Assembly (NCBI GenBank): GCA_030628225.1
Contig: DAOVRJ010000001.1
Location: 1 to 40,158 of the forward strand
DNA length: 40,158 nt
Direction of reading: 5' to 3'
Origin: Candidatus Zixiibacteriota bacterium
GTDB taxonomy: Bacteria > SM23-81
Shown here piece after piece: positions 4 through 3,984 of the stretch; within the stretch, counting starts at the first letter, position 1; each line of letters begins with the position of its first letter. The position numbers and the translations under genes were made by a program. The notes under the pieces were generated by a model, which was not told the origin of the DNA, ran no database searches, and was given only the letters and a program-made list of their open reading frames with translations.

Positions 4-600
4 TCATCCCTTCCCCACCTCACTATCCAGCCGGCGGATCATTCCCAACAACCCCACCAGCGGCAACCCCACCACATTATAAAAACAGCCATCGATCCCG
101 CTGATCAAAAGCGCTCCTCTCCCCTGAATCCCATACGCCCCGGCCTTGTCCAGGGGCTCGCCGGTGGCCACGTACTCGGCGATCTCCTCATCGGCCAGCT
201 CCCGGAAGGTCACCTCGGTGCGTTCCACGTGAGAGATCCAGATATCTCCAGCTACGTCTATGAGCGTCAAGCCGGTATACACCTGGTGAGTTCTGCCGTT
301 GAGCTTTCTGAGCATCGCGGCGGCCTCCCGTTTGCCGGCAGGTTTTCCCAGAATTTCCCCGTCCAGTACCACCACGGTGTCCGCACCCAGAACCACACCG
401 GAGGAGAGTCTTTGGGCCACATCCCGAGCCTTGCGACGGGACAGCTCCACCACGTGGTCCTCGGGATCCACCGGGGCATCCACATCCTCGCTGACCCCGC
501 TGACCATCCGGCGGAAAGGAATGCCGGCCAGGTCCAGCAAATCCGCCCTTCTGGGAGATGCCGAGGCCAGTATCAGCTTGTCCTCTCGAGTCCAGCTCAT
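4..600 (-). CDS. maf: Maf-family nucleoside triphosphate pyrophosphatase
   Basis: A 198-residue protein of the Maf/HAM1-like fold, which hydrolyses non-canonical or excess NTPs (dTTP/UTP in the YhdE type) to monophosphate and pyrophosphate in the cytoplasm. The N-terminal signature SASPRR is at residues 13-18, the GADTVV segment with its catalytic-site Asp at 72-77, and the late GIQGRGA and [13 protein letters not shown] segments are also typical. Length is normal for the family. Its ATG overlaps the stop of dtd in an ATGA arrangement, so the two are probably translationally coupled. The SASPRR/GADTVV combination fits the dTTP/UTP type better than the m7GTP type, but substrate is inferred from family only. 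Confidence 0.95.
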
Positions 601-1046
601 CGTTCCCTCTCCGATTCAAGGATCAGAGTTACCGGGCCATCGTTGTGGATATTCACGGACATGCGGGCTCCGAAACGACCCGTCTCCACCCTCAGTCCGC
701 TTTGCCGCAGAATGGCCACGAAATGCTCATACAGGGGCTCGGCCTTATCGGGTGGCGCCGCTTCAGTAAAGCTGGGCCGGCGTCCCTTGCGGCAATCCCC
801 GTAAAGGGTAAACTGGGAGATGGCCAGGATCTCCCCACCCACCTCCAGGACGGAGCGGTTCATCTTGCCCTGCTCATCCTCGAAGATGCGCAGGTGGAGA
901 CATTTTTCGGCCAGATAGCGGGCCTGGGACTCTGTATCATCGTGTCCGATGCCCACTAAGAGTACCAATCCCAGGCCGATCCGGCCGATGGATTGACCAT
1001 CAACTGTGACCTCTGCTTCGCTGACCCGTTGTAGGACGATTTTCAT
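597..1046 (-). CDS. dtd: D-aminoacyl-tRNA deacylase
   Basis: A 149-residue DTD-fold protein that hydrolyses D-aminoacyl-tRNA (and Gly-tRNA-Ala) to recycle the tRNA. It has the family N-terminus [17 protein letters not shown], the active-site segment [17 protein letters not shown] near residues 96-112, and the Gly-cisPro segment NDGPVTLIL near the C-terminus that enforces chirality. Length is standard. A GGGGGAG ribosome-binding site precedes the ATG. It forms a two-gene unit with maf. Upstream is a 292-bp gap made largely of short tandem repeats, so its promoter, if separate from the upstream genes, would lie in or next to that repeat block; I see no clear one. Confidence 0.97.
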
Positions 1047-1093
1047 GAATCATCTCCCCCTGAGTGGTCTCACAGGAAGCTCGTCTGCCGAGG

Positions 1094-1308
1094 TTCGAGA
1101 TTCGAGATTCGTTGAAAGAAAAACCGATGCTGGATTCTGGATGCTGGATCCTGGATTAAAGTCGAGAAGAACGGGATTCGGGATCCGGGATTCGTAAAGG
1201 CAAAGTTCAACTGCTTTTTCCATTTTGCATTTTTCACTTTGCACTTTTCATTTTGCATTTCACTTTTTGCATACTGCCTCCTGCCGACTGCTTACTGCTT
1301 ACTGGTTT
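1094..1308. repeat. Mosaic of degenerate 7-bp tandem repeats
   Basis: The 292-bp gap between dtd and the UbiA gene holds no gene but several blocks of 7-nt tandem repeats of different sequence. On the plus strand these are TTCGAGA units (1094-1110), CTGGATN units (1130-1157, four copies), and GGGATNC units (1173-1193, three copies). Then comes an unbroken run of 14 heptads (1211-1308) that drifts from TTGCATT/TTTCACT-like units to CTGCTTA-like units without losing the 7-nt phase. A shorter 6-nt pattern (ATTGCC/ATTGCT) follows at about 1311-1330. Heptameric short tandem repeats are known in cyanobacteria (STRR), but a chain of distinct families like this is unusual. Function is unknown. Confidence 0.85.
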
Positions 1309-1338: not shown

Positions 1339-2178
1339 TCAAACCCAAACCCCGGCCAAAATCGCCGCCAGTCCCACCCACATATCCACTTTGAGTAATA
1401 GGCTCAACCGCCCCAAATGGTCAGGACTGGAATTCCGCTGGGAAGAGAAAATCACGTACAGCAGGGGAAAATCCACACCGAACACCACGATGATCAGATA
1501 GGCCAGCGAGTAGTGGCCGACGAGATGAGGTATCGGTGTGGCTGCAATCAATATACTGAAGGCCAGACCAGCCCATCGGAGGGCGGCGGGCACACCCACC
1601 ACCGCCGGCAGGGTCCGGGCCCCGGCTGCTCGATCGCCCACCTCATCCTGGGCATCCTTGAGGATCTCCCGTCCCAGATGGAAGAGAAAAGCGAAGCACG
1701 CCGGAACCAGGGCCGGGCCTGGTCTGCCTGTGGCGATCCCTCCATAGAGGAAAGCCAGGCCAGCGGCCAGAGCCACTGCCAGGTTGCCCCACAGAGGCAT
1801 CCTCTTCAGCCAGGCGCTGTAAGCCACCAGCAGAAGGACCACCAGGATGGCGATCAGCAACCCCCAGAGGCCAAGAGCGGGGCTGATGGCCACGCCCAGC
1901 ACCATGAGCATCACTGAAAAAGCGGTCGCCTGGGACCTGGTTAGCCGACCGGAGGGCAGGGGCCTGCCGGGCTTGTTGACCCGGTCTATCTGCACATCGA
2001 AAACATCGTTAATGGCGTTTGCCCCGCCGGTGATCAGCCCGGCCACCAAACAGGCAAGAAGGACCGGCAAGTCCGGGCGCAGCAAACCAGAGGCCAGAGC
2101 CCCCACCAGCACGGAGCCGGCGGCGATGACCACGTTCAGCGGCCTGCTTAATTGCAGGTAGGCAATCACTCGTCGCAT
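1339..2178 (-). CDS. UbiA-family prenyltransferase (archaeal DGGGP-synthase-like)
   Basis: A 279-residue integral membrane prenyltransferase with about eight or nine hydrophobic segments. The first Asp-rich motif is NDVFDVQIDRVNKPGRPLPS near residues 57-76, binding the prenyl diphosphate through Mg2+. The second is REILKDAQDEVGD near residues 170-182. This motif spelling resembles geranylgeranylglycerol-phosphate geranylgeranyltransferases (the archaeal ether-lipid enzyme) more than ubiquinone or menaquinone (MenA) enzymes, but those and a protohaem/chlorophyll role cannot be excluded. It follows the Omp85-like gene by 21 bp and may end that operon. Related enzymes are reported in FCB-group bacteria with potential for archaeal-type lipids; that this one makes such lipids is inference. 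Confidence 0.85.
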   Translation of the reverse strand: MRRVIAYLQLSRPLNVVIAAGSVLVGALASGLLRPDLPVLLACLVAGLITGGANAINDVFDVQIDRVNKPGRPLPSGRLTRSQATAFSVMLMVLGVAISPALGLWGLLIAILVVLLLVAYSAWLKRMPLWGNLAVALAAGLAFLYGGIATGRPGPALVPACFAFLFHLGREILKDAQDEVGDRAAGARTLPAVVGVPAALRWAGLAFSILIAATPIPHLVGHYSLAYLIIVVFGVDFPLLYVIFSSQRNSSPDHLGRLSLLLKVDMWVGLAAILAGVWV

Positions 2179-2199
2179 GAGGATACATCCTCCAGGGGC

Positions 2200-3984
2200 T
2201 TAAAACTCGTTGATCACCCCAAAATGCACCTTGCCATCGGCCAGACCATCCCCCTCACCCAACCCGTAGTCCACTCCGACGATGCCCAGCCGGGACTCTA
2301 AGCGCAACCCCACCCCATAGCCTATCTTCTCTCCGCTGACCTCCTGAACAACCTCTGTCAGGGGATCTATCTTCCGATAAAAATAGTGGCCCGCGTCCAG
2401 GAATAAAAAGCTCCACGAGCGGCGTCCCAGGAGGAAGCGATACTCCAGGTTGGCCCAGATAATCCGCGAGCCATGAAACTGCTCCTCCCGATAGCCGCGC
2501 AGCGTCCGGGCCCCACCCAGCTTGAACTGCTCGTTTAAGGGTACCACAACCTCATCGCTGTAAATCTCCCCCAGATGAAGGTTAACCGCCACCACCTGAT
2601 GCCGGAAAACCCTCACGTACTGCTCCAGCTCACCGGTGAACTCCGTGCTCTCCACCCGACTCCGGGCAGGCTGATATGTCTCGGTGGCCTGGTTCTTCTT
2701 AAAACGCTGGCGAATCATCGTCTGATATCGGCCGCCTCTCCGGGGGGCCAGAAGGTCATCCCGAATATCCAGCTCCAGCCAGACACCCGCCAGGTAGGAT
2801 CGGCTGCCGGGCAGATCCTGACCACCCTTTATATCGGGTATCACCCTCTGCCAGTCGAACATCACACCCCCTATAACGTGCTCCCCGATGGCGGAGTGGG
2901 CTTGAATTCCCAGATCCGTTTGGGCATATGAAGAATCCTGGTTGACCTGCTGGATGTAGCCACCCAGGGTCAGCGGCAGACCCAGAAGCCATGGTTCCTG
3001 ATAGGCGAAGCGCAGTTTTGAGGAAAGAGGATCGCACCGGCTCCAGGCGGCCTCCACTCTCCGGCCCGTGCCCATGAGGTTGCGAAAGGAGAGGTCCAAA
3101 AGACCAGTGAAGTATCCGTCCCGTTGCTCTGTGGCCGGCTGGTAGCCCAGCACTCCGTCGATGGTGTTGGTGCGGCCCTCCACCACCGGAACCACCAGCA
3201 CCGCCAGATCGGAGCGATCACCCGGCAGAACCTGAATTTCTCCCACCTCCCCAAAGAAACCCAGGCGCTGCAACCTTCTATGCCCCTGTTCTATGGCCCG
3301 TTGATTGTACAGGTCACCCTCATCTATGCCCAGCTCCCGGCAGATGACGGAGCTTTTAGTGATGGTGTTGCCCTCCGGCACCACCGACTGCACCCGGACC
3401 CGAGCACCTTCCTGGATGGTTAATCCAAAATCCAGGCGATCCTCCGCGGTCAACCGGAACTGAGTCACCTGGATCTGGCAGTAGGGATGGCCGTTGTTCT
3501 CGTAGACTGTCAACAGCCTCTGCACATCGGCCTCCAGAACATCGCCGCGGAAGACCTGTCCAGAGCGCAGGTCCATCTGCTCCTCTATGGTTTCCCGCCT
3601 GAGCCATCCCTTGCCCTGTATCTCCACCTGGCCTATACGCACCAGGGGACCTTCGTTAATAAGCAGAGTCAAATCCACTTGGGAAGAATCCTGGTTGAAA
3701 CTAAGCTTCGGCGGGAAGATATGCGCCCGAAGATAGCCCTCATCCCGGTACCAGCTGAGCAGACTTTGGATATCTCCCTCCAGGATGGCATCGTCCAAAG
3801 GCCGGCCCTCCCGGGTGACCATCATCTTCAAAATGGTCCGCGTCGAGGCGGCCTTGTGGCCCTGAATGTCCATCTTATGCAGCAGAGCTTGATCCTCTCC
3901 GGCGGCGCCGGACCACCAGCCCAACTGAAGGGAAAGCAAGATGAGCAAAAATGCCCTTCTGGCGATATCCACCATTTGTTCCAT
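2200..3984 (-). CDS. BamA/TamA-family (Omp85) outer-membrane protein
   Basis: A 594-residue protein with an N-terminal signal peptide (hydrophobic stretch at about 11-25), then roughly three POTRA domains (about 33-270) and a C-terminal 16-strand-type surface-antigen barrel (about 280-594) ending in the aromatic residue Phe typical of outer-membrane barrels. The barrel carries the conserved GGARTLRGY segment, matching the inward-folding RGF/RGY loop of Omp85 proteins. Size is close to TamA and shorter than BamA (usually five POTRA domains), so this is probably an accessory assembly or translocation factor. Only 10 bp separate it from the giant barrel gene upstream, which may be its substrate or partner (inference). 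Confidence 0.9.
   Translation of the reverse strand: MEQMVDIARRAFLLILLSLQLGWWSGAAGEDQALLHKMDIQGHKAASTRTILKMMVTREGRPLDDAILEGDIQSLLSWYRDEGYLRAHIFPPKLSFNQDSSQVDLTLLINEGPLVRIGQVEIQGKGWLRRETIEEQMDLRSGQVFRGDVLEADVQRLLTVYENNGHPYCQIQVTQFRLTAEDRLDFGLTIQEGARVRVQSVVPEGNTITKSSVICRELGIDEGDLYNQRAIEQGHRRLQRLGFFGEVGEIQVLPGDRSDLAVLVVPVVEGRTNTIDGVLGYQPATEQRDGYFTGLLDLSFRNLMGTGRRVEAAWSRCDPLSSKLRFAYQEPWLLGLPLTLGGYIQQVNQDSSYAQTDLGIQAHSAIGEHVIGGVMFDWQRVIPDIKGGQDLPGSRSYLAGVWLELDIRDDLLAPRRGGRYQTMIRQRFKKNQATETYQPARSRVESTEFTGELEQYVRVFRHQVVAVNLHLGEIYSDEVVVPLNEQFKLGGARTLRGYREEQFHGSRIIWANLEYRFLLGRRSWSFLFLDAGHYFYRKIDPLTEVVQEVSGEKIGYGVGLRLESRLGIVGVDYGLGEGDGLADGKVHFGVINEF

Follow-up and report, generated by a model that had tools for sequence, protein, structure and literature searches.

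The 7-bp repeats between ubiA and dtd form a mosaic of non-coding intergenic DNA that consists of two adjoining dispersed repeat modules. This arrangement probably arose by dispersal of blocks between gene gaps, combined with expansion and contraction by whole heptads and point mutation of individual units. The mosaic lies in a window of 40,158 nucleotides (the whole stretch of DNA that was analyzed), which is contig C166 of a 2.34-Mb genome that is 92% complete in 306 contigs.

The heptad mosaic in the ubiA-dtd gap

The intergenic gap between ubiA and dtd spans 292 bp (1047-1338), as defined by ORF-based gene calls, and holds the entire mosaic. Among named database entries, the UbiA protein was most similar (47-48% identity) to proteins of a bin assigned to candidate division KSB1 and of two other bacteria. 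Family labels refer to the gene (minus) strand, on which the units read TCTCGAA (C), TCCAGNA (E), TCCCGAA (D), TGAAAAA/TGCAAAA (A), and GCAGTAA (B). The features of the region are as follows.

4-600: maf, the next gene after dtd
597-1046, minus strand: dtd, D-Tyr-tRNA deacylase (PF02580, E 1.8e-62), downstream of the mosaic
1087-1171, minus strand: Block 1, a dispersed module of C array (TTCGAGA), A-rich linker, and E array (CTGGATN), with copies elsewhere in the genome
1089-1112, minus strand: C array of TTCGAGA units (TCTCGA[A/G/T] on the gene strand); TRF 1089-1111
1112-1125, no strand assigned: linker TTGAAAGAAAAACC joining C to E, found with the same neighbors in L101, L202, L064, and L201
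1126-1156, minus strand: E array of CTGGATN units (ATCCAGN on the gene strand); TRF 1126-1156 and phase of the GGAT cores
1172-1301, minus strand: Block 2, a dispersed module of D array, linker, A array, and B array, with copies elsewhere in the genome
1172-1194, minus strand: D array of GGGATNC units; TRF 1172-1194
1193-1214, minus strand: conserved linker CGTAAAGGCAAAGTTCAACTGC, with D or C on one side and A on the other; 13 genome copies
1216-1272, minus strand: A array of TTGCATT/TTTCACT units in 14-bp alternation; TRF 1212-1272, periods 7 and 14
1274-1305, minus strand: B array of CTGCNNN/CTGCTTA units; TRF 1268-1304, A-B junction also in L191 and L102
1339-2178, minus strand: ubiA, UbiA-family prenyltransferase (PF01040, E 3.1e-43), upstream of the mosaic

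Across the gap, identity at lag 7 was 0.51, compared to 0.26 ± 0.026 (maximum, 0.35) in 2000 dinucleotide shuffles (z 9.6). Both parts of the gap were significant by themselves, with values of 0.45 against 0.25 ± 0.04 in shuffles for 1047-1210 (z 5.3) and 0.71 against 0.33 ± 0.05 for 1211-1308 (z 7.8), and the top lag-7 stretches of the window all fell within this gap. TRF independently recovered the five period-7 arrays. The mosaic of different 7-bp repeats that the first-pass annotation had described from the letters of the window is thus real, and two tests set beforehand came out in its favor: the period-7 autocorrelation exceeded that of shuffled sequence, and many other heptad arrays were found in the same genome.

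The gap contains heptad arrays from five families that mostly share one phase. As the first-pass annotation had observed, the GGAT cores of the CTGGATN and GGGATNC arrays are spaced by multiples of seven; all seven cores, from 1132 to 1188, occupy the same residue modulo 7. Its count of 14 uninterrupted heptads at 1211-1308 was generous. The first of these heptads, CTGCTTT (1211-1217), is mostly the end of the non-repeat linker, the eighth, TCACTTT, contains 2-nt shifts that offset each other when aligned with another copy, and CTGGTTT, the last, is weak. The 5′-most family begins at about 1089, not at 1094.

Gene-strand RNA of the mosaic was predicted to fold no better than shuffled sequences (z +0.70), the opposite strand gave a weak folding signal (z -1.77), and an Rfam search of the gap returned nothing close to threshold. 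Given the shuffle-level folding on the gene strand and the lack of a near-threshold Rfam match, we rejected an RNA structure or a known RNA family as the identity of this element.

Block copies and the genome-wide heptad repertoire

We compared the two blocks with the rest of the genome by pattern searches, which covered whole genomes with one genome per species, and by alignment. Block 1 aligned with L101 9876-9960 at 85% identity over 86 positions, linker included, and partial copies were found in L202, L064, L201, and L205. Block 2 aligned with L102 4961-4830, on another contig, at 90% identity over 132 columns; with an affine alignment, the identity was about 95% over 120 positions and the two copies were one exact 7-bp deletion apart. 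Further copies of Block 2 were detected in L092 (94% over 97), L090 (92% over 99), and L191 (94% over 94), the last spanning the A-B junction. Because array matches alone are confounded by periodicity, the common descent of these copies rests on the linkers and junctions. The non-repeat linker between A and C or D (CGTAAAAGCAGAGTTCAACTGC and variants) occurred in 13 copies genome-wide at ≤3 mismatches, and at the same threshold was found neither with a reversed-pattern control nor in three relatives. In each of the 12 copies whose flanks were read, the linker is bordered by A and, at its opposite end, by C or D.

Dispersed copies differ in copy number by whole units. Among gap lengths in alignments of all pairs of 12 copies, there were peaks at 7 (12 gaps) and 14 (6 gaps), compared to 3 gaps each at 6 and 8 and none at 13 or 15; gaps of 1-2 nt were also common. 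Likewise, junction distances that share a residue lie exactly 7 or 14 nt apart (12/19/26, 46/53, and 18/25). Taken together, the alignments show modules, linkers, order, and polarity that recur in other gaps, in copies that differ by whole heptads.

The same comparison bears on the proposal that heptad phase is kept across family changes. In the window, where the arrays are largely in one phase, A passes into B in register at a copied junction, which L102 and L191 also possess. Elsewhere, other junctions of the same families break phase, and strict phase keeping as a rule was therefore rejected: B-to-A distances had residue 5 modulo 7 in 6 of 9 cases and residues 0, 3, and 6 in the others, and D-to-C distances had residues 0, 3, and 4. 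A gradual change is seen at L106 4005-4116, where CTCGAAT drifts to ATCCAGT with one to several changes per unit and no phase slip. Phase is commonly inherited and survives gain and loss of whole units, yet is not strictly kept. In the window it would mostly have been inherited with copied junctions and whole-unit gain or loss, and not by 7-nt templating.

For a census of repeat periods we used about 461 kb, comprising the window and 60 contigs that were taken by number and not selected for arrays. Ninety arrays were found at lag 7, compared to 0-4 at lags 4-6, 8, 10, 11, and 13 and 7-19 at lags 9, 12, 15, and 18, so period 7 predominates among the repeats of the genome. Arrays were mostly intergenic, as 78 of the 90 lay outside ORFs of at least 250 amino acids, although these ORFs make up 80% of the sample. 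Many arrays in this 306-contig assembly lie near contig ends. Array statistics, drawn from ~721 kb of the genome (partly array-selected) and 633 kb of a genome from a sister genus of the same family (G001, which has longer contigs), revealed about ten consensus heptad families recurring in dozens of gaps. The C family had 191 matches in the genome and 47 in G001; in two genomes from the same phylum there were almost none. The A family had 242 and 10 matches in the genome and G001, respectively. Adjacent arrays have a fixed order and polarity, with A+ to C+ found 13 times and the reverse order once, A+ to D+ in a ratio of 4:0, and B+ to A+ in a ratio of 3:0. The orientation of arrays relative to flanking co-directional genes was mixed, although the gene calls used for this were crude.

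Other elements of the genome carry inverted heptad arrays. The A+/A- elements have inverted arms of the A family, a loop of about 50 bp, and conserved flanks (GCCATTCTGGAAATGGCGCATTG ... GGGGGCCACATCAGAGGGTATACAGG); this palindromic element is present at L063 5557-5680, L053 3517-3640, L079 22-145, and L187 1989-2112 and in L188, L189, L190, and L192. Another inverted element, with GGAACTC/TCCGNNC heptad arms, was seen at L031 3539-3647, L073 8196-8298, and L104 2638-2740. The latter two have in common a conserved 43-bp loop (TGAAAAGCAAAAACAATAATATCTGGGATGGAGTG...), part of which is found in L031. Telomere-like (TTAGGGG)n heptad arrays also occur, sometimes as inverted pairs (L074 4342-4405 and the gap at L051 2087-3866).

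In G001, the orthologous ubiA-dtd gap contains, from dtd towards ubiA, C, E, unrelated DNA, and B; neither D, the linker, nor A is present. At the place of Block 2, this gap has a dispersed repeat of its own (GATTCCCGC...GCGGGAATGACA; L154 9856-10264). The two genomes share 13 gaps that measure 80 bp or more in each; arrays were present in both at 2 of these gaps, only here at 2, only in G001 at 1, and in neither at 8, which are small numbers. A further gap, which exists in G001 alone, also carries an array. The L051 gap, compared at 2087-3494 with L270 of G001, measures 372 bp here with an inverted pair of TTAGGGG arrays, and 139 bp in G001, where it is 233 bp shorter and array-free.

Origin and maintenance of the arrays

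Comparison of the copies led us to the reading of block dispersal with whole-unit change, whose agents we infer. Modules would move between gaps in blocks of about 80-160 bp, with ectopic recombination, gene conversion, or passive mobilization as candidate routes. Within them, replication slippage or unequal exchange may add or remove whole 7-bp units of the arrays, and units may mutate and re-amplify in register to give rise to new families. Since mutated units would be re-amplified in register, neighboring units could drift between families without loss of phase. The suggestion in the first-pass annotation that heptad arrays had repeatedly been captured at one site comes close to these data, as the gap consists of two adjoining copies of dispersed blocks.

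Against this reading, we did not identify a mobilizing enzyme for the modules, and neither target-site duplications nor terminal inverted repeats were seen for Blocks 1 and 2. The genome encodes four Y1_Tnp proteins, one of which approaches the REP-associated type (79 bits, with the cut-off at 80), and we linked none of the four to the modules of the window. Two Y1 transposases are found at L208 561-1331 and L088 1360-1949, one near the REP-associated (RAYT) type and the other with two flanking palindromes of the GCGTCGCCTC-TCCT-GAGGCGACG type that are REP-like in look. At L207 1203-1965, an IS200/IS605-family transposase gene with GC-rich hairpin borders lies inside an A+/A- element. Because the same element occurs empty, without the transposase, at L103 2503-2689 (95.7% over 187 bp), the IS200 copy does not explain the spread, and we rejected it as mobilizer and consider it a passenger.

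The main rival to dispersal with whole-unit change is a binding function, because the units have fixed and free positions, with variation confined to set places (TCCAG[N]A and TG[A/C]AAA[A/G/T]), which also weighs against our preferred explanation. The arrays would be selected platforms on which a protein or RNA, for example a cold-shock-type or nucleoid protein, contacts 7-nt units one by one; such a contact would fix the period and the rigid positions and tolerate change at the free position. Families C, E, and B have identical rigid and identical free positions in the two genera, between which the proteins of shared genes show a median identity of 66%, and the polarity grammar of the arrays also fits this reading. 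According to passages in PMC4679880 that cite earlier literature, cold-shock protein can bind one heptamer per protein. Adjacent units in families C and K are more alike than shuffled units, which favors our preferred explanation; neighbors in family A are only slightly so and those in family E no more so. Variation in E and A hardly decays with distance, a pattern that plain local slippage would not predict and that counts against our preferred explanation. However, arrays come and go at orthologous gaps, their orientation to flanking genes is mixed (crude gene calls), heptad words of unrelated contigs match those of this genome no better than chance, and no protein was identified, so that we regard the binding platform as rather unlikely. 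The fixed and free positions common to the two genera hint, in a way that can be tested, at a binding partner or at biased turnover of the repeats. In a broader version, which seems doubtful to us, the period of every array, regardless of its letters, is set by some general activity or binding protein of bacteria that has a 7-nt footprint and fixes five or six of the seven positions; if true, this would explain why genomes with no relation to each other, and at least one phage contig, have unrelated words that repeat at exactly seven.

The remaining explanations fare less well. Copying of a 7-nt template, by a telomerase-like or other reverse transcription that adds heptads and switches template, would account for many unrelated words with a single period and for the telomere-repeat likeness of the TTAGGGG-type arrays. 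Such a process, one of those put forward in the first-pass annotation, is largely refuted and highly improbable: no PF00078 (RVT_1) match, which a retron or DGR would also require, was found in the 92% complete genome, non-heptad linkers are conserved, blocks are copied whole at 90-95% identity, and 1-2 nt indels and phase breaks exist. Slippage acting independently in each gap, with no spread between gaps, draws on the over-representation of period 7 among long simple repeats of many bacteria, for which polymerase slippage was proposed in earlier work that PMC4679880 and PMC4692102 cite. We consider it very unlikely, and for the window it is refuted by the shared linkers, since a dozen gaps share linkers, junctions, and order; it may hold for linker-free arrays. 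Finally, the fragmented assembly with its many arrays near contig ends could point to an assembly or binning artefact, yet the array of the window is flanked by syntenic genes and sits 1 kb into a 40-kb contig, and similar arrays, with a related mosaic between ubiA and dtd, are also found in the sister genome with its longer contigs. The chance of such an artefact is negligible. Dispersal of blocks with whole-unit gain and loss is thus the explanation that we retain. The case separates three questions that are often run together: the spread of the arrays, which move as blocks including linkers; their changes in length, which come in whole units; and the reason for a period of seven, which does not depend on sequence.

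Comparison with known heptameric repeats

Heptamers outnumber every other class of long simple repeats in many genomes (PMC4679880, PMC4692102), and passages in both papers cite them as noted since 2007 to be the commonest long simple repeats in many bacteria. Neither paper demonstrates a mechanism for the number seven. Heptameric repeats have been reported in Microcystis, Xanthomonas, Nostoc, and Beggiatoaceae. Different heptamers occur together in Microcystis and in some Bacteroidetes, and the homologous gap of a relative can be free of repeats (PMC4679880 and PMC4692102); for Xanthomonas, inverted pairs are described (PMC4692102).

IMG/VR contigs selected by three CTGGATN units often carried other heptad families too. 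With the selecting motif masked, the largest counts were 66 arrays for lag 7 and 51 for lag 14, and no other lag gave more than 18. A vocabulary shared between these contigs and the genome was rejected, as matches amounted to 2% against 1% for permuted words when exact and 11% against 17% at ≤1 mismatch. One of the contigs, L217 (IMGVR_UViG_3300049215_000811), has a phage capsid gene (PF25209) and several heptad families, inverted pairs included. Three others (L233, L245, and L256) each contain nine or ten arrays, differing in their words, in a span of about 8-12 kb; the two or three ORFs tested per contig had no Pfam match.

An ordered, linker-joined, dispersed heptad mosaic was not found in the open-access literature searched, which does not prove its absence. 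The genome is a favorable case for the study of heptad repeats, having hundreds of arrays (by extrapolation) in about ten families that can be aligned via conserved linkers, and a sister genus whose ubiA-dtd gap holds a related mosaic adds to its value.

Several known systems resemble parts of what we observed. BIME/REP and MITE-like repeats are likewise dispersed, non-coding, composite, and often palindromic elements of gene gaps, to which the A+/A- inverted elements are similar; however, the inverted elements of this genome have arms made of heptad arrays and lack a REP core, neither a linked transposase nor a target duplication was shown for them, and no palindromic REP core was found in the window mosaic, in which folding stayed at the z values given above. 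The Xanthomonas and Nostoc repeats GGGNATC and GGGGA(C/T)T are likewise G-rich intergenic heptads that occasionally form inverted pairs and vary in length among relatives (PMC4692102), whereas family D (GGGATNC) forms runs of about three units and is one of many families. A further likeness is to the STRR of heterocystous cyanobacteria and the TAACTGA repeats of Beggiatoaceae, Microcystis, and Bacteroidetes, which are likewise short, mostly intergenic 7-bp direct repeats with variant units, in several families per genome that are sometimes mixed in one gap and missing from the gap of a relative (PMC4679880; PMC4692102). The arrays described here share with them 7-bp tandem units, a mostly intergenic location, recurrent families, and whole-unit changes between dispersed copies. 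Heptameric repeats of mixed families are therefore a known kind; what we did not find described in the papers searched is a mosaic as modular, ordered, and dispersed as that of this KSB1-like lineage, in which, compared to STRR-like repeats, about ten families are arranged in linker-joined, ordered, oriented, and dispersed blocks.
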